From the NCBI RefSeq assembly GCF_013284245.2, contig NZ_CP085876.1, positions 396,501 to 460,500 on the forward strand: DNA of 64,000 nt. Reading direction: 5' to 3'. This document shows positions 37,057 to 44,349 of this stretch, piece by piece (positions within the stretch are counted from its first letter, which is position 1; every line of letters starts with the position of its first letter). A program made the translations under genes and the position numbers. The notes under the pieces are model-generated. The model was not told the origin of the DNA and made no database searches. It saw nothing but the letters and a program-made list of their open reading frames with translations. Origin of the DNA: Brevibacillus sp. DP1.3A (GTDB lineage: Bacteria; Bacillota; Bacilli; Brevibacillales; Brevibacillaceae).

Positions 37057-37998
37057 ATGACATTTCGTAGAAAAAAAGTAGCCGTCATCGGTAGTGGTTT
37101 TACAGGAGCGACAACTGCGTTCATCATGGCGCAAAAAGAGCTGGCTGACATCGTTTTGGTCGATATCCCTCAATTGGAAAACCCAACAAAGGGTAAAGCA
37201 CTCGACATGATGGAAGCTTCCCCAGTCCTTGGCTTCGATGCTAGCATTACAGGTACTTCTGACTACAAAGACATCGAAGGCTCCGATATCGTAATCATCA
37301 CAGCAGGTATTGCTCGTAAGCCAGGTATGTCCCGCGACGACTTGGTAGCAACGAATGCAGCCATCATGCGCTCTGTTGCTGAGCAAGTGAAAACATATGC
37401 ACCAAACTCCATCGTACTCATCCTGTCCAACCCGGTAGATGCGATGACCTATACATTCTACAAAACGTCCGGTTTCCCGAAACACCGCGTAATCGGTCAA
37501 TCCGGCGTACTGGATACAGCTCGCTTCCGTACGTTCGTAGCGATGGAACTGAATGTATCCGTAAATGACGTAACAGGCTTCGTATTGGGCGGTCACGGTG
37601 ACGACATGGTACCACTCTTGCGTTACTCCTACGCTGGCGGCATCCCACTCGAAAAATTGATCCCACAAGATCGTCTGGATGCCATCGTCGAGCGTACACG
37701 CAAAGGCGGCGGCGAAATCGTAGCTCTCTTGGGCAACGGTTCCGCTTACTATGCACCTGCGGCAGCTCTGGTAGAAATGGCAGAAGCGATCTTGAAAGAC
37801 CAGAAGCGCATCCTGCCATCCATCGCTTTGCTCCAAGGCGAGTATGGCTACAACGATATCTACCTGGGTGTACCAACTCTCTTGGGTGGAAACGGTATCG
37901 AGCAAGTCATCGAGCTGGATCTGACTGCTGCTGAGAAAGCAGCATTGGATAAATCCGCAGATTCCGTTCGTGCTGTTATGAAAGTAGCTATGCCATAA
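37057..37998 (+). CDS. mdh: Malate dehydrogenase
   Basis: 313 residues, very like Bacillus Mdh: [20 protein letters not shown] (NAD loop), [29 protein letters not shown] with the substrate arginines, and [14 protein letters not shown]; catalytic His in [12 protein letters not shown]. It interconverts malate and oxaloacetate with NAD(H). It sits 20 bases after eutC with a good RBS (GAGGAGG) and closes the operon. In Bacillus mdh normally lies with citZ-icd, so this position is notable. There is no apparent encapsulation tail. Confidence 0.95.
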
Positions 37999-38078: not shown

Positions 38079-38280
38079 GGAAGAAGCGGATTTCCAGTCT
38101 ACGCTTCGGCCTACGCCCTGCTGAGGGCGGGTTCTGTTCGCTCCGAAATAAATAGCGGGAGCGCTTCAAAAGTAGAGTTTCAAGGATGTATTTGCAGAGG
38201 TTGAAGCTGAAAACCCCCGCTATTTATTTCGGAGCTGGGTAGGGCTCCAGAGGCGCTAGGACTGGAAATCCGCTTCTTCC
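38079..38280. repeat. 200-bp imperfect palindrome (foldback / MITE-like element)
   Basis: The ends are perfect inverted repeats (AAGAAGCGGATTTCCAGTC at 38081-38099 and its complement at 38260-38278). Inside lie a 20-bp inverted pair GCTCCGAAATAAATAGCGGG (38140-38159) and its complement (38216-38235), and then GCGCTTCAA/TTGAAGCT. The whole could fold into one long branched hairpin. No ORF is supported. The 478-bp gap between mdh and the next gene otherwise holds only the mdh terminator and the promoter region of the regulator. Confidence 0.75.
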
Positions 38281-38476: not shown

Positions 38477-39871
38477 ATGGGGGGGCTGCAAGGGACATTG
38501 CACTGGTCGCTGCGGTCAGAGATTGAAAGACACCGTAGAGAGTGCGGCTATACCTTGAGTAAATTAGGTGAATTAACGGGCATCAACCATGGGAGCTTGA
38601 GCGAGATTCTGAACGGAAATCCACCGCGGGCTATGACCATTGGTCAATTAGATGCGCTCGCTGCGGTGTTTGGTCGCGAGCCAGGTTGGTTGTACGAATT
38701 GTATACGGAAGAATGTATATCAGAGGGGAGAATATCGCGCCCTCGGTTGATACCATATTTGATACGATGTGCAGAGGTTGGGCGGCAGGATTGCATAGAA
38801 GAGGTTGTTCCTAAATTGTTGGACAACCCTAAAAATATTTCGACCCTCTTTTTAGTGGCGGAACAGCTATATGAAAGCGGGAAACAAAAAGAATCCATAC
38901 CTTTTTATCAGGCTGTCGTTGATAGCGAGAAGGATGGACATTCTGAGCAATTCGTAAGGAGTCAGTATCGATTGTTTCGGGCTGCACTCGGGACCAATTC
39001 TGAAGAAAATGGGGAGGCAGTTATTCGGTTTTCCCCCTATCGGAATAGGCTTCCTGAAAACTATCAGCTGGATGCTTTATTTCAATTAGCGCGGGTTTCT
39101 TATGCTTTGCAGAAATGGAAGAAGTCGGAACAGTACGCTGATGAATTACGGTATCTTGCGGAAACGATTTACATACATGAGTTGGACAGATTGAAAAGAG
39201 ATAAAAAAAGTGAACTGCCTGAGACAGAACGTCCTCTTGTGTATTATTACGCCATGGGACATTTATATAAAGGCGCGACATTGGAAATGCAAGGAATGTA
39301 TGCACAAGCCAAGTCGTATGTACAAATTTATGCTGATCTAGGATGGTTTGAGCTGCTGGATGAAGTTGGACATCAAGAGGTAGAGCGGTTCCGGATTTGG
39401 GCAAAGGCTAACTTATACACATTAGAGGTATTGGCTGGTAATACCAACACCATTGAGGAGTATGCCGATTATCTTGAGAGTCTTCCCCCAAATGAAATAC
39501 TTCCTGGTTTAATTTCTATTATAAAATCAGCTAATATTTACGATTTTTGTGTGGATGAAATATTAGAGCGCTTTTCAATGCACATCGCCAATTTTGGTCA
39601 ATATACCGACGCAATTCGTTTGGACAGGCATATTCGATTTCGGTATCAGGCAGCCATTTATGAATTCGGTAAAGGGCGACTAGAGAAAGGGATTGAAGAA
39701 ACGATATGCTGTCTTTCTTTAGCCAGTTTGATAAATCGCTTTGAAGATGCTCTTAAATGCATAGCGTTATTTGAAGAGTACCGGCAACATGCATCGCCAA
39801 TACAAGTGGAACGATATCAAACCATTGTAACGGGCAGAAAAAAGGAGAACATTCTTTCTAAAAAGAATTAG
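38477..39871 (+). CDS. HTH-TPR regulator, RRNPP-like peptide receptor (copy 1)
   Basis: 464 residues. Xre-type helix-turn-helix at about 12-65 (YTLSKLGELTGINHGSLSE and NGNPPRAMTIGQLDALAAVF), then helical TPR-like repeats to the end (IPFYQAVVDSEKDG; YQLDALFQLARVSYALQKW; HLYKGATLEMQGMYAQAKSY). This plan matches peptide-binding regulators such as NprR, PlcR and AimR; I did not match it to a named one. Start: an earlier ATG at 38467 aligned with the start of copy 2 is out of frame because of seven Gs (38479-38485) rather than six. It is followed by a secreted-peptide gene and a Spo0E-like gene. Confidence 0.8.
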   Translation: MGGLQGTLHWSLRSEIERHRRECGYTLSKLGELTGINHGSLSEILNGNPPRAMTIGQLDALAAVFGREPGWLYELYTEECISEGRISRPRLIPYLIRCAEVGRQDCIEEVVPKLLDNPKNISTLFLVAEQLYESGKQKESIPFYQAVVDSEKDGHSEQFVRSQYRLFRAALGTNSEENGEAVIRFSPYRNRLPENYQLDALFQLARVSYALQKWKKSEQYADELRYLAETIYIHELDRLKRDKKSELPETERPLVYYYAMGHLYKGATLEMQGMYAQAKSYVQIYADLGWFELLDEVGHQEVERFRIWAKANLYTLEVLAGNTNTIEEYADYLESLPPNEILPGLISIIKSANIYDFCVDEILERFSMHIANFGQYTDAIRLDRHIRFRYQAAIYEFGKGRLEKGIEETICCLSLASLINRFEDALKCIALFEEYRQHASPIQVERYQTIVTGRKKENILSKKN

Positions 39872-39942
39872 ATAGTAATACCTGTAACCTTGTTATATGC
39901 TGTTTTTTGGCAGATTTACACAAAATCAAGGAGGTTACATCT

Positions 39943-40059
39943 ATGAAAAGTTTCTTTCTATCACTGGTTATGGTTCTAGCTTTATTTACTGGTTCTCCAT
40001 ACACAGAGAAGCCCCATAATATCAGTATAATTATGTACGACCATGGAACAGAGGGCTAA
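39943..40059 (+). CDS. Small secreted peptide, candidate Phr-like signal pheromone
   Basis: 38 codons with a strong RBS (CAAGGAGG, nine bases before ATG), 71 bases after the regulator. MKSFFLSLVMVLALFTGS is a good Sec signal; the hydrophilic remainder PYTEKPHNISIIMYDHGTEG ends in a short tail that could be the mature signal. Size, signal sequence, and position directly after an HTH-TPR gene are those of RRNPP pheromone precursors. The mature peptide cannot be fixed. It is followed by a terminator. There is no counterpart after regulator 2. Confidence 0.7.
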   Translation: MKSFFLSLVMVLALFTGSPYTEKPHNISIIMYDHGTEG

Positions 40060-40103
40060 AGAATTGATATTCATGGATAGTTAGTTAAATAGATCGAGAT
40101 CGA

Positions 40104-40133
40104 AAAAACATCCCTCCGATGGGATGTTTTTTT
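40104..40133 (+). terminator. Terminator after regulator 1 and peptide gene
   Basis: AACATCCC and GGGATGTT around TCCGAT, followed by T7. The same type of hairpin follows regulator 2. Confidence 0.88.
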
Positions 40134-40216
40134 CTATTCAATTTTTCTTAGTCAGTGAATTTCTGCACATCCCTGTATAGTAATTATATGTAATAAATTG
40201 TAAAAGAGAGGGGGCG

Positions 40217-40507
40217 TTGGATATTACTGCTATCGCAAGTATTTTAGATATGGATGTTTCTCTTCACCCTGAAAACTCCCCCAAAAGAGGAGCAGCATCA
40301 GCCCCTAAAAGTAGGTGTACGATCCGGGGCATGGTAAAGGAAATCGGTTGCCACTTAGAGTTGGATAATAGAATCGAACAGCTACGACTGGAAATGATGG
40401 AATTGGCGGGAAAGTATGGTCTCGTACATGATAAGGTTTTGGCTGTAAGCCAACAATTGGATAAATATATTGTCATTGCACAAAACAGATTGAAAACGGA
40501 AAAGTAA
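40217..40507 (+). CDS. Spo0E-like aspartyl-phosphate phosphatase with N-terminal extension (copy 1)
   Basis: 96 residues from TTG behind GAGAGGGGG. Residues 50-90 are a Spo0E domain: two helices IEQLRLEMMELAGKYGLVHD and VLAVSQQLDKYI, with the diagnostic SQ-x-LD at 78-82. Spo0E proteins dephosphorylate Spo0A-P and so delay sporulation. The first 45 residues are an extension holding RGAASAPKSRC, a motif shared with copy 2 and with a decayed copy. Between this gene and the regulator there is a terminator, so it probably has its own promoter near 40170-40200. Confidence 0.8.
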   Translation: MDITAIASILDMDVSLHPENSPKRGAASAPKSRCTIRGMVKEIGCHLELDNRIEQLRLEMMELAGKYGLVHDKVLAVSQQLDKYIVIAQNRLKTEK

Positions 40508-40695
40508 GGATTAGATCAGTCCTTCTCACACTTCAAGGCCTCTAAAACCCTCCATTAACCTATTATCTATCTAGGCAATTGCCGACTCTTGACATGTTTG
40601 AATCATAGTATCGAACTGGATTACGAATTGATAGGAAGGTCAAGTAGTATTTTTTTTAAAAATATAAATTGTAAAATGGAGGAAAGGTTCTAGGG

Positions 40696-42057
40696 ATGAT
40701 CCTTTATGGGGGGCTGCAAGGGACAATGCATCGGTCGCTGCGGTCAGAAATTGAAAAATGCCGGAGAAAGCACGATTATACATTAAGCAAGCTGGGGGAA
40801 TTAACGGGCATTAACCCTGGAAGCTTGAGTGAGATTCTTAATGGAAATCCGCCGCGGGCTATGACCATAGGGCAATTAGATGCGTTTGCCAAGGTATTTG
40901 GACGCGAGCAGGGTTGGTTATATGAATTATACCCGGAAGAATGTTTGTCAGTGCAGAGAATTTCGCGCCCACGATTAATACCGTATTTGGCTCGATGCGT
41001 GGAGGTTGGGAGAAAGGATTGCATAGAGACTGTTGTTTCCATATTGTTAGAGAATCCGAAAAACATCTTGATTCTGTTTGTCCTTGCAGAGCAACTATAT
41101 GAGAAAGGGCAACTGAAAGAGTCAGTGCCCTTTTATGAATATGTGATTGAGAATGAAAAAGATAGCTATTCTGAGCACTTCGTGATGAGTCAGTATCGGT
41201 TATTTTGTGCTGTACTAGGGACAAATGCAGAAGAAAATTGGGAGAATGTGATTCGGTTTTCTCCGTATCGAAATCGGCTTCCAGAGAACTACCAGCTCGA
41301 TGCTTTATTCCAATTAGCACGGGTTTGTTTTGCTTTGCAAAAGTGGAACAAATCAGGCGAGTACGGTGACGAGTTACGGCTTCTTGCAGAAACTGTTCAC
41401 ATGCATGAATTGGAGAGGTTAAAAAGAAACAAAAAAGGGGAACCCCTGAAAAACGAGCGCCATCTTGTCTACTATTACGGAATGGGACATTTATATAAAG
41501 GCGCAGCACTGGAAATGCAAGGACTGTATGAAGAGGCGAAGCAGTATGTGCAAGTTTACGCTGATTTAGGAGGGTTTGAATTACTTGATGAAGACGGACG
41601 TAAAGAGGTAGAAAGATTCAAAGTATGGGCAAAGGCGAACTCCTACACATTGGAGGTGTTGTCTGGCAATACAAGCATCATTGAAGAGTATGCAGACTAT
41701 CTCGAGATCCTGCCCACCAATGAAATACTTGCTGGTATGATTTCTATTATGAAATCAGCAAATACCTACAATTTTTGTGTAGATGAGATATTGGATCGCT
41801 TTTCTTCGCAAATTGCTAGTTTCGATCAATTTACAGAAGCAATAGGATTAGATCGACACCTCCAGTTTCGGTATCAGACAGCCATTTATGAGTTTGGTAA
41901 AGGGCGGATCGAGAGAGGGATTGAAGAAAGTATACATTACCTTTCCCTAGCAGATTTGATGAATCGACATGATGAGGCTCTTACATACATAGCATTGTTT
42001 GGATGGTTAGGGAATTTGAATAAACGAATAGGGAACCAAAACGAGTTAGGTGGCTAG
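40696..42057 (+). CDS. HTH-TPR regulator, RRNPP-like (copy 2, no adjacent peptide gene)
   Basis: 453 residues, homologous to copy 1 over its whole length with long identical stretches (SLSEILNGNPPRAMTIGQLD; RFSPYRNRLPENYQLDALF). The start ATG (MILYGGLQG) has GGAGGAAAGG upstream and six Gs in the tract after TTTAT, so the frame runs from the first ATG. The C-terminus is shorter and differs after about residue 440. No small secreted peptide could be found in the 250 bases downstream, so this is a candidate orphan receptor or one that responds to the peptide of copy 1. Confidence 0.8.
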   Translation: MILYGGLQGTMHRSLRSEIEKCRRKHDYTLSKLGELTGINPGSLSEILNGNPPRAMTIGQLDAFAKVFGREQGWLYELYPEECLSVQRISRPRLIPYLARCVEVGRKDCIETVVSILLENPKNILILFVLAEQLYEKGQLKESVPFYEYVIENEKDSYSEHFVMSQYRLFCAVLGTNAEENWENVIRFSPYRNRLPENYQLDALFQLARVCFALQKWNKSGEYGDELRLLAETVHMHELERLKRNKKGEPLKNERHLVYYYGMGHLYKGAALEMQGLYEEAKQYVQVYADLGGFELLDEDGRKEVERFKVWAKANSYTLEVLSGNTSIIEEYADYLEILPTNEILAGMISIMKSANTYNFCVDEILDRFSSQIASFDQFTEAIGLDRHLQFRYQTAIYEFGKGRIERGIEESIHYLSLADLMNRHDEALTYIALFGWLGNLNKRIGNQNELGG

Positions 42058-42096
42058 CATCCTGTTAGGTCATTGTGAATATATCGTAGATTGATG

Positions 42097-42123
42097 AAAC
42101 ATCCTCTGCCAGGATGTTTTTTT
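42097..42123 (+). terminator. Terminator after regulator 2
   Basis: AAACATCCT and AGGATGTTT around CTGCC, then T7. Confidence 0.85.
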
Positions 42124-42189
42124 ATTCCATTTTTTGCAGTCGGTAAAAACCCGCATAACGACATATGGTTAATTATGTAATAAATATAA

Positions 42190-42306
42190 AAAAGAGGAGG
42201 TGGTGACAATGTTCCATGAAGCAATAGAAATCTAAGAACATCTCTAAAAAGAGGAGCCGCAGGTGTCACTAAAAGCAAGTGAATAATCCGGTGGTAAAGG
42301 AAGTAG
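42190..42306 (+). pseudogene. Decayed Spo0E-like gene fragment
   Basis: The DNA AAAAGAGGAGCCGCAGGTG-TCACTAAAAGCAAGTGAATAATCCGG-TGGTAAAGGAAGTAGG aligns closely to the start region of the first Spo0E-like gene. Translation gives KRGAAGVTKSK then a stop, where the intact gene has KRGAASAPKSRC, and a four-base deletion follows. An RBS (AAGAGGAGG) and ATG at 42209 remain but lead to a stop after eight codons. It joins directly to the intact second Spo0E-like gene. Confidence 0.65.
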
Positions 42307-42307
42307 G

Positions 42308-42610
42308 GTGAGTCTTATAGCAGCAATTGCATTTAAAAAGGGCATTCCACCCCTTCGACAGGTTAAAGGAACGCCCGCAGGAGGAGCAGTTACAGCTCCT
42401 ATAAGTAAATGTATCATGCTACCTCTAGATCGAGAAGGAGTAACCTATTACAATATTGATCACTTGAAAAACATTGTGGAACAATTGCGAGAACAATTGG
42501 TGCAAATGTATTTAGAGAAGAATGATTTCTTGGATGATGAAGTCGTGGCATTAAGCCAGCAATTGGATCAGTACATTCTGGTTATTCAATCAAAAATGAT
42601 GAAAAAATGA
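42308..42610 (+). CDS. Spo0E-like aspartyl-phosphate phosphatase with N-terminal extension (copy 2)
   Basis: 100 residues from GTG behind AAAGGAAG. Spo0E domain at about 52-95 (IVEQLREQLVQMYLEKNDFL and VVALSQQLDQYI, SQQLD at 83-87). The extension holds PAGGAVTAPISKC, matching RGAASAPKSRC of copy 1. The start could also be elsewhere, because the DNA just upstream is a remnant of another copy. Likely lowers phosphorylated Spo0A; the role of the extension is unknown. Confidence 0.75.
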   Translation: MSLIAAIAFKKGIPPLRQVKGTPAGGAVTAPISKCIMLPLDREGVTYYNIDHLKNIVEQLREQLVQMYLEKNDFLDDEVVALSQQLDQYILVIQSKMMKK

Positions 42611-42684
42611 AAGAATTAATTTCTACAGAATTAGATCAGTAGCGCAAAGATGTAGAAACATGAAAAGAGGGAGTGGGGAAGGCT

Positions 42685-43782
42685 ATGAAGAAATTCAAAA
42701 GAGCATTAGTGCCTTTTGTCGTATTCTCATTGTTATTTGCTCCTGTGTCAGTCTCGACGCCTGCATCTGCTGAAAGTACAAAGGAAATCGCTGAGACAGA
42801 AGAAGTCATTGATTTCGAAAACCTTCCCATACAGCTGGCGGAAGGGGTAACACTGGAGGAATTGGCGGAGGCCATCAATGAACCACGCATCCTTGAAAGC
42901 AAAAACGTAACTATTATAGAGAGCAGCACAGCGGATGAAGTCATCGGAGAGCGTCAAATGGTGTATAGCCCCAATGCAGCACCAGTTACAAAAGAAGACG
43001 ATTCTAAATTTGACTTCGGTGCCTTCACTTATGAAGAAGCTGCCGAAGCCGATGGAGCTAATGAGGTTGATGAATCTGACATAAGTGAGGTTAGGGCTGC
43101 TAATCCGATGAGTGTGTTTCCTAGACCTGTTGGAGTGTTCTTTGACCACATCATGACAGCCGACTGGGCAGGCGGTGATATATACTCGAATATTAAAGTA
43201 TCCGCCGTGATCGGTAGCGTGTCCTCTGTATCGGCTACTCACTCTATCACTCGCTCAGTAACAAAGGACGGGAAATATCGAGTAGAAAGAACGAATAAAC
43301 CATATTGGAGACCCCCTTACGTCAGTCTATCACAGGATAGGGTGCGCGCGAATGCAGAGACTTACTGGTGGTCAGGTACTTTTACCGGCACTGTTACATT
43401 CCAGAGTGGTAGTTCCGCACCTATCGACACATTGAAGGAAGTAAAAAGTATCCTGACTAACAATTTAGGAGAAATATATCCAGATTACGTCGATCCCCAG
43501 TCCAACATTGAATTGATCAAACCGCCCGCTGACTTGTTGCCCCAGAAGAGAGAGAGGGAGCCGGGGTATAAAGCGAAATTCGAGAAACATTATACTAATC
43601 ACTACGGCGCCCCTCAATACTTCTCTTGGGATGAAGTTGAAATCCATCACATGATCCCATTACAATATTGGGGAACAAACGATATGGACAACTTGATTCC
43701 GCTTCTCAGAAAAGAATATACCAACCAGTACATCCTGTATCATCATGAAGTCACTAAGTGGTGGGATAATTACCGAAAATAA
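42685..43782 (+). CDS. Secreted protein with C-terminal HNH-like nuclease domain, candidate toxin
   Basis: 365 residues from ATG 42685; a GTG 12 bases upstream is possible. Sec signal (FKRALVPFVVFSLLFAPVSV, cleaved near ASA-ES). A long acidic N-terminal region to about 135, a middle domain rich in Ser/Thr and aromatic residues, and a C-terminal segment with EIHHMIPLQYWGTNDMDNLI and HHEVTKWW, the His-His...Asn...His pattern of HNH/endonuclease-VII-type toxin domains. The immunity-type gene that follows supports a contact-independent or wall-released toxin. The exact nuclease family was not settled. Confidence 0.7.
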   Translation: MKKFKRALVPFVVFSLLFAPVSVSTPASAESTKEIAETEEVIDFENLPIQLAEGVTLEELAEAINEPRILESKNVTIIESSTADEVIGERQMVYSPNAAPVTKEDDSKFDFGAFTYEEAAEADGANEVDESDISEVRAANPMSVFPRPVGVFFDHIMTADWAGGDIYSNIKVSAVIGSVSSVSATHSITRSVTKDGKYRVERTNKPYWRPPYVSLSQDRVRANAETYWWSGTFTGTVTFQSGSSAPIDTLKEVKSILTNNLGEIYPDYVDPQSNIELIKPPADLLPQKREREPGYKAKFEKHYTNHYGAPQYFSWDEVEIHHMIPLQYWGTNDMDNLIPLLRKEYTNQYILYHHEVTKWWDNYRK

Positions 43783-43845
43783 ACGTAAAAACGGACTGTC
43801 ATTTGAGTGGCAGTCCTTAATTTCATTGGAGGGTGTGAGAGCAGA

Positions 43846-44349
43846 GTGAGTAATTCTATTGACCGCATTTTAGAAAAGATTAAAGGAATAAGAGAAATAC
43901 TAAACGGGGATTTGCGTATTATCGGCGAGGAGTTTGAGTTCATTTTTTATAAATCTAACGATCCTGGCACCGAGATAGAGATACTAAAATCGTTTGATTT
44001 ACCCGAGGATTATGTCAGCTATTTATGTCAGTACAGCAGAGCCGCACTATTTCGGGACTTAGAATTTGGCAGCAGTCGCTGCACGATACTCAGCCCTCAC
44101 AACATCATTGATTATTGGAAAGGGTATAGTATCGACCATCCTTACTATCCTATCGCTTGGAGCAGCCATTCATTAGGCTGTGTGTGCGTGGATCAAGACA
44201 GAATACATAGTGGTAACGGCTATCTTACATGGATTGAATCGATGGACCTCGACAACCCGATTGATATAGACCTGACATTTACGGAGTGGCTAGATAAGCT
44301 AATCGAACATGAAGGGAAGGAATTCTGGATTACACCTTACGAAGAATAG
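43846..44349 (+). CDS. SMI1/KNR4 (SUKH) family immunity protein
   Basis: 167 residues from GTG with GGAGGG 12 bases upstream; an ATG at 43807 would lie far from any RBS. SUKH landmarks: FDLPEDYVSYLCQYSRA, IAWSSHSLGCVCVD (the degenerate G-x-D segment) and DLTFTEWLDKLIEHEG. These proteins are the commonest immunity partners of bacterial nuclease toxins. It begins 63 bases after the toxin gene. Confidence 0.82.
   Translation: MSNSIDRILEKIKGIREILNGDLRIIGEEFEFIFYKSNDPGTEIEILKSFDLPEDYVSYLCQYSRAALFRDLEFGSSRCTILSPHNIIDYWKGYSIDHPYYPIAWSSHSLGCVCVDQDRIHSGNGYLTWIESMDLDNPIDIDLTFTEWLDKLIEHEGKEFWITPYEE

Follow-up and report, generated by a model that had tools for sequence, protein, structure and literature searches.

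A 64,000-nucleotide stretch of the Brevibacillus sp. DP1.3A genome (the window; contig NZ_CP085876.1, positions 396,501 to 460,500) was analyzed for the genes that follow malate dehydrogenase (mdh). These genes likely form an Alo-type, RRNPP-like quorum-sensing locus, in which a secreted pheromone would control a Spo0E brake on sporulation. Alo consists of AloR, a receptor with helix-turn-helix (HTH) and tetratricopeptide repeat (TPR) domains, and of the downstream precursor AloP, as described for Paenibacillus polymyxa in passages of Voichek et al. 2020 (PMC7425212). In the window, receptor A is followed by a pheromone precursor and Spo0E A (unit A), and receptor B is followed by Spo0E B (unit B). 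The genome has a size of 6.66 Mb, and all listed genes from mdh to 44349 are on the + strand. A preliminary description had reported two homologous HTH-TPR proteins, a 38-codon peptide with a Sec-type signal, and a Spo0E after each receptor; each of these was found in place, and the family matches were confirmed. The same description had spoken of a cassette in two copies. Receptor and Spo0E are indeed doubled, but unit B has no peptide gene and its receptor has a replaced C-terminus.

The features of the two units, in window positions, are as follows.

38477-39871, + strand: AloR-like receptor A, HTH and TPR superhelix, 464 amino acids (aa); Pfam HTH_3, AlphaFold2 model and fold matches
39943-40059, + strand: aloP-like pheromone precursor, 38 codons, Sec-type signal; ribosome-binding site, hydrophobic core and [H/N]Gx ending in homologues
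40039-40056, + strand: predicted mature pheromone DHGTEG, six last codons; place and pattern match mature AloP13 SHGRGG (parts of PMC7425212)
40106-40133, + strand: terminator-like hairpin in the gap between aloP and spo0E A; read by eye, absent from the list of the hairpin scan
40144-40181, + strand: spo0E promoter element TTTYTNA-N14-GNRNR-N6-TATAGT; sole exact match in the genome
40217-40507, + strand: Spo0E A, N-terminally extended, 96 aa, TTG start; PF09388 E=4.1e-14, SQQLD motif, relatives with solved structures 2bzb and 2c0s
40696-42057, + strand: AloR-like receptor B, 453 aa, peptide-less, C-terminus replaced; 75% identity to A up to residue 432, member of a peptide-less clade
42096-42120, + strand: terminator-like hairpin 3' of receptor B; hairpin scan
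42132-42169, + strand: variant spo0E promoter element (TATGGT) 5' of Spo0E B; two differences from the element by hand count
42207-42307, + strand: relic of a Spo0E-A-type gene start, identified by reading; the open reading frame (ORF) ends after 8 codons, and relatives share the relic
42308-42610, + strand: Spo0E B with a 'type 2' N-terminus GTPAGGAVTAPISKC; PF09388 E=3.4e-10

Receptors, pheromone precursor, and Spo0E genes

The 38-codon ORF starts 71 nucleotides (nt) after receptor A and has a ribosome-binding site and a Sec-type signal. Unit A thus shows the feature by which Alo systems are recognized, a short ORF of 32-50 aa with a hydrophobic N-terminus directly downstream of the receptor, whereas unit B does not. 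To place this arrangement among relatives, we used a receptor table built from the window, 51 stretches (L047-L097) and four Paenibacillus loci (L043-L046), which gave 83 receptor ORFs. Filters were passed by 78 of these, including three broken pieces; L040-L042 were not counted, as they duplicate the records G014, G005, and G004. In the relatives, the signal-bearing small ORF overlaps the receptor end or sits just past it. When a rule that includes the HG ending was applied, 48 receptor-peptide pairs were flagged, and 47 were retained after a false one (L073m5479) was dropped. A scan without the HG requirement found a signal-bearing small ORF 3' of 45 of 75 receptors, and all 45 of these ORFs, with 42 different sequences, ended in [H/N]G followed by 1-3 residues. 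This ending occurred in none of the 22 comparable ORFs at other places of these sequences, a number that includes some repeat counts. These counts indicate that the arrangement of receptor and peptide ORF exceeds chance. The window precursor ends in YDHGTEG, and the mature pheromone is predicted, by analogy with AloP13, to be DHGTEG.

The HTH of receptor A matched HTH_3 (E=1.2e-5) and that of receptor B matched HTH_26 (E=8e-5), both above the Pfam cut-off, and the TPR_2 match was weak in both proteins. Receptors A and B were 75% identical across 431 residues. AlphaFold2 models reached a predicted local distance difference test (pLDDT) score of 91.4 for A and 89.6 for B, with confident helical repeats in both. 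The model of receptor A is a TPR superhelix, and its structural matches include NprR (Z 16.8), RapI (Z 15.5), RapF, and RapH. The receptor therefore bears the HTH and TPR architecture, with the HTH above the Pfam cut-off and the TPR below the cut-off by sequence and visible in the model. Among named relatives, those closest to receptor A (84-88% identity) come from Brevibacillus formosus, B. fortis, and B. porteri, and a match was present in 25 of 60 related genomes. Identity to receptors on Paenibacillus plasmids was 31-43% over 93-97% of the length, among the 15 Paenibacillus matches listed.

A scan of viral_contigs found no relative of the receptor. Two phages carried receptors of their own. 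The B. laterosporus phage SecTim467 (L102:3661-5392) encodes an AloR-like receptor of 44% identity downstream of spo0E, and this receptor region is handled as transposable in parts of the phage authors' paper (PMC4909266). In phage Emery (L106:2917-4400), a distant receptor (21% identity) is followed by a small secreted ORF with HGGIGW repeats.

Both Spo0E proteins scored above the PF09388 cut-off (E=4e-14 for A and E=3e-10 for B), were 33% identical across 78 residues, and contained SQQLD. SQxLD is the motif of the Spo0E family, and we take the solved structures 2bzb and 2c0s to be Spo0E-like. Spo0E B had 28 matches, itself included, across 37 genomes (E<=1e-12). The co-conservation of the three genes in relatives, which the preliminary description had offered for checking, held when tested, as Spo0E was the next gene within 1 kb downstream in 40 of the 47 receptor-peptide pairs. 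In nine species, the alo genes occupy the same position beside mdh, which is itself 99-100% identical among them. An inverted repeat was also seen 5' of receptor A, with AAGAAGCGGATTTCCAGTC at 38081 and its complement from 38260 (window 38081-38279).

The spo0E promoter element and the proposed switch

The hexamer TATAGT was present in 40 of 56 upstream regions of Spo0E genes, compared with a mean of 5.6 and a maximum of 12 in 200 dinucleotide shuffles. The alignment of 22 nonredundant sites on TATAGT revealed a T-rich box roughly 30 nt upstream, together with a G-x-A-x-A stretch before the -10 hexamer. At the usual spacing, the aligned sites showed no consensus -35 hexamer, which would be expected if the promoter depends on an activator. 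The exact pattern TTTYTNA-N14-GNRNR-N6-TATAGT occurred once in the genome of the window, at 40144-40181, and its reversed control did not occur. Across the 60 genomes, 40 exact sites were found versus 5 for the reversed pattern, and 31 of the 40 preceded a Spo0E of the fetched loci by no more than 500 nt. Six of the nine other sites were examined: one preceded a Spo0E that had not entered the earlier set (L203), one was near a receptor relic without Spo0E (L201), and four had neither. A pattern allowing one mismatch was dropped as too weak (6 matches in this genome versus 10 for the reversed control). The element recurs in unit B with unchanged spacing and with TATGGT in place of TATAGT, and TATGGT is kept in all five unit-B rows that extend that far.

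A solitary, N-terminally extended Spo0E was found elsewhere in the same genome (L098:3225-3527; G000:C1:3564251) with no adjoining receptor match. A TATACT variant of the alo-type promoter lies upstream of it, as expected of an alo locus stripped of its receptor, and on this sequence pattern the gene is likely a remnant of such a locus.

According to the proposed mechanism, peptide-free receptor A would bind beside the spo0E A promoter, at the element at 40144-40181, and activate spo0E A. Spo0E would keep Spo0A unphosphorylated, and sporulation would be held back. The 38-aa precursor would be exported, and its six last residues (predicted DHGTEG) would be cleaved off and re-imported. The re-imported peptide would dock in the TPR groove of receptor A, so that spo0E is turned off at high density and the brake is released. 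Activation, shut-off by the peptide, and direct control would be carried over from AloR13: passages of Voichek et al. report that in Bacillus subtilis, the spo0E promoter is turned on by AloR13 and shut off by SHGRGG, that spo0E-like genes lie directly 3' of six P. polymyxa Alo systems, and that Spo0E of B. subtilis dephosphorylates Spo0A (PMC7425212). The pheromone sequence, the polarity in Brevibacillus, and the effect on sporulation are what we infer for the window. The Alo core, tested in one Paenibacillus species, would thereby gain DHGTEG as a predicted pheromone and, in addition, a promoter element, both testable by reporter.

Peptide-less receptors and secreted cargo

No peptide gene follows receptor B. 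In comparison with receptor A, its last 32 residues (past 432) are lost and a different 18-residue tail stands in their place; in the AlphaFold2 model, the last helix of A is missing and the protein ends in a low-confidence extension. The tail was considered as a pheromone fusion and rejected as a clear case, as the resemblance in the DNA alignment was limited to short matches close to the stop, for example TAGGTGGCTA. A quick maximum-likelihood tree was built from 81 rows, and along it the peptide label switched nine times, eight of them forced by well-supported branches. Receptor B grouped with other peptide-less rows in a clade of 11 (support 99), which joins six peptide-bearing rows including receptor A (support 100). 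Peptide-less and peptide-bearing copies also share a stretch in other lineages (L043-L046, L068, and L073). These sequence comparisons point to a repeated origin of peptide-less tandem receptors. The ratio of nonsynonymous to synonymous substitution rates (dN/dS) was 0.16 in the peptide-less clade (55 pairs) and 0.12 in the peptide-bearing clade (15 pairs), and the new tail of the peptide-less clade alone had dN 0.065 and dS 0.170. An intact receptor of this clade was present in all nine species read with the syntenic locus. The peptide-less receptors are thus under purifying selection and are retained, not decaying. Receptor B would be a retained peptide-less paralogue placed before Spo0E B, and it may hear the pheromone of its neighbor or work without any. 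Recurrent peptide-less tandem receptors provide natural replicates for the question of why bacteria retain receptors without a signal of their own.

The locus had been described as ending at 42610. Instead, Spo0E B is directly followed by the gene of a secreted HNH-like protein and then by a SUKH-like gene, and a hairpin was found at their junction (43793-43816, hairpin scan). These genes and the upstream neighbor of the locus are as follows.

37057-37998, + strand: malate dehydrogenase (mdh), identified by eye
42685-43782, + strand: secreted HNH-like protein at a variable 'cargo' position; rule-based signal peptide, HNH E=0.005 (below the Pfam cut-off), possible GTG start at 42673
43807-44349, + strand: SUKH-like gene, candidate immunity protein; SMI1_KNR4 E=0.011 (below the cut-off), 28% identity to the neighbor in L072

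The HNH-like protein scored 17.4 bits against a cut-off of 21.4, and its relative in L072, another alo locus, scored 20.8 bits, also just under. The SUKH-like protein scored 16.7 bits against a cut-off of 25.4, and the homologous L072 gene scored 55.4 bits (E=1.2e-14). Because its own scores are below the Pfam cut-offs, the case for a toxin-immunity pair in the window rests on 27-28% identity to the L072 pair (27% for the HNH proteins). A sequence search of the PDB with the HNH-like protein returned nothing, and NCBIfam gave nothing above its cut-offs.

The cargo position was then compared across loci. By a motif rule, 22 type-2 Spo0E genes were chosen in the fetched loci, and a crude automatic rule flagged a signal-bearing next ORF after 16 of them versus 3 of 40 other Spo0E genes. 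Baselines under the same rule were 11 of 100 ORFs for a set of 15 other loci, and a high 15 of 55 for the ORFs of the window. Among the unflagged type-2 genes, those of L047 and L048 have a signal that was overlooked by the ribosome-site rule, those of L054 and L093 are damaged, that of L078 is followed by a receptor, and that of L049 is cut by the locus end; where the L049 gene is read in L174, a signal-bearing ORF comes 487 nt on. Three more type-2 genes (L181, L187, and L190) have a signal-bearing ORF next to them by eye, which in L181 is lipoprotein-like. Seven kinds of cargo protein were found beside mdh in the nine syntenic species; the position in two further loci, L075 and L072, is given after them.

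Window: HNH-like and SUKH-like
G006: 303 aa with a GERHH stretch, reading frame damaged at the start
G013: Ntox33-like (below cut-off) and DUF4279; the same secreted protein in G019
G005: 193 aa
G014 and G015: 246 aa
G002: 388 aa
G004: 321 aa
L075: Amidase_6 protein (E=2.7e-28)
L072: another HNH-like protein and a clear SUKH gene (E=1.2e-14)

Most of the remaining cargo matched no family above cut-off. When 14 cargo proteins were compared, the only non-self matches at E<=0.01 were window-L072 (27%), L054-L085 (53%), and a 32-residue match of L051 and L071. By sequence, the loci are related to one another and their cargo is mostly unrelated. On plasmid pSb31l of P. polymyxa (L168:4768-5193), a NucA/NucB deoxyribonuclease, possibly toxin-like cargo, lies about 1.3 kb 3' of an AloR-like receptor.

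The Spo0E B transcript probably continues into the HNH-like gene and perhaps into the SUKH-like gene, and unit B would probably subject a second Spo0E and a secreted protein to this switch or a related one, with receptor B responding to the same pheromone or to none. We tentatively propose that Brevibacillus Alo loci are pheromone-gated antagonism islands, in which one AloR-driven transcript carries Spo0E, an exchangeable toxin, and its immunity gene, and the toxin unit has a dedicated activator, a peptide-less AloR whose C-terminus is new; this proposal is possible and still doubtful. If it is true, cells short of pheromone would remain vegetative and attack non-kin, which reverses the pattern of cannibalism in B. 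subtilis, where killing is done by sporulating cells. If the cargo shares the switch, peptide quorum sensing would couple the sporulation decision with the attack decision, and the question of what Alo systems serve would become directly testable.

Alternative explanations and known systems

Several points weigh against an Alo-type sporulation switch at this locus. The fold match is one to TPR proteins in general; the best Z belongs to eukaryotic LGN, above NprR and RapI. A copy of AloR13 for comparison was not found when the primer sequence of Voichek et al. and a back-translated SHGRGG pattern were searched; the SHGRGG-coding matches were in unrelated reading frames, and none had an adjoining receptor match. 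The counts of the promoter element are partly circular, because the pattern was built from many of the same loci, and receptor binding at the element is suggested by position. Seven of the 47 receptor-peptide pairs lacked a Spo0E within 1 kb downstream; among these, one is at a contig end (L087), and in L045, L069, and L077, Spo0E is 1.3-2.8 kb away. Spo0A is assumed as the target of the extended Spo0E proteins by analogy with the family. For the cargo, the hairpin at 43793-43816 may part the HNH-like from the SUKH-like gene. Receptor A could also act as Rap proteins do, directly on the phosphorelay, with Spo0E as an incidental neighbor. RapI, RapF, and RapH are indeed among its structural matches, but both receptors have a Cro/C1-type HTH, Spo0E is co-conserved with a promoter element of its own, and AloR13 controls spo0E transcription according to parts of PMC7425212; we therefore regard this explanation as very improbable.

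The cargo also has a different explanation, in which the HNH-like protein and its neighbor are unrelated to the pheromone and the end of the alo locus is a recombination hot spot whose cargo has its own promoter. Full-length relatives of the HNH protein (70-83% identity, three species) lie away from the alo cluster, and SUKH-like relatives in G019 (91% identity across 139 residues) and G005 (69%) lie beside HNH fragments only; both observations support this explanation and speak against a neat toxin-immunity pair. In these two genomes, the protein after Spo0E differs from the HNH-like cargo of the window, so the SUKH-like gene is not tied to one cargo. Because only HNH fragments lie near these relatives, the SUKH gene appears separable from the nuclease, and on this pattern SUKH genes may outlive the nuclease or move separately. 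Two close SUKH-like relatives near HNH fragments only (L049:10197-10703 and L052:14083-14499) are possible immunity genes that have outlasted the nuclease. The spacers from Spo0E to cargo range from 21 to 284 nt, the longer of which could hold promoters, and the hairpin at 43793 fits the same explanation. On the other hand, type-2 Spo0E followed by secreted cargo occurs at several unrelated chromosomal sites and not just beside mdh, and spacers of 21, 44, and 52 nt (L051, L085, and L066) and 62-74 nt (window) suggest read-through. SUKH relatives without the same cargo slightly lower the probability of an antagonism island and raise that of the hot spot, which we consider a real possibility that stays short of probable. 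A last alternative treats unit B as a decaying duplicate, with the peptide lost, the receptor truncated, the Spo0E promoter weakened to TATGGT, and the leader a relic. The deleted peptide gene, the relic at 42207-42307, and the altered -10 hexamer agree with it, but the low dN/dS of the clade and of its tail, the intact clade receptor in all nine syntenic species, and the conserved TATGGT in five of five unit-B rows make it improbable. The relic itself is possibly kept as a 5' leader.

Among known systems, the Alo-type reading of the window is closest to Alo itself, with which it shares an HTH-TPR receptor, a downstream signal-peptide ORF, a C-terminal pheromone with HG, a spo0E-like neighbor, and tandem receptors. 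Passages of PMC7425212 extend the profile search to Brevibacillus and note orphan receptors and the tandem aloR13/aloR14, where the aloR14 peptide is degenerate, and parts of an mBio paper on RRNPPA evolution list AloR as a possible family member (PMC9765709). The novelty that the preliminary description had seen in this arrangement was already known, because parts of PMC7425212 describe both arrangement and control and parts of PMC10075063 propose such control for phage systems, and a reporter experiment of the kind it had proposed has been published for AloR13-AloP13-spo0E (PMC7425212, in part). The window differs from Alo in that two Spo0E genes flank a peptide-less receptor shorn of its C-terminus; in addition, the N-terminus of Spo0E carries a conserved extension, and a variable secreted protein comes next. 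The main-text passages of PMC7425212 and PMC10075063 and the open-licence literature, as far as these sources were covered, make no mention of secreted cargo at Alo-type loci. The spo0E promoter element, the recurrent peptide-less receptors under purifying selection, and the variable secreted protein after N-terminally extended Spo0E genes are new in this analysis. RRNPP systems of phages and prophages share a DNA-binding receptor adjoining spo0E and a proposed density-dependent control of host sporulation; passages of Bernard et al. 2023 on RRNPP_detector (PMC10075063) propose this control for phage RRNPP systems beside spo0E or abrB. Those systems are carried by phages or prophages, whereas the window locus is chromosomal and lies beside mdh in nine species.

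With polymorphic toxin-immunity systems, the locus shares variable secreted toxin-like proteins, SUKH or DUF4279 neighbors, and a single genomic position; it differs in that the set is linked to a pheromone receptor and a Spo0E phosphatase and in that the SUKH-like gene is also found apart from this cargo. Rap-Phr of B. subtilis has in common with the proposed switch a TPR receptor, a re-imported peptide, and a role in sporulation timing. In Rap-Phr, Rap lacks an HTH and acts directly on Spo0F. Both window receptors have an HTH, which fits the earlier proposal of a DNA-binding peptide receptor that, unlike Rap-Phr, would control a neighboring Spo0E.

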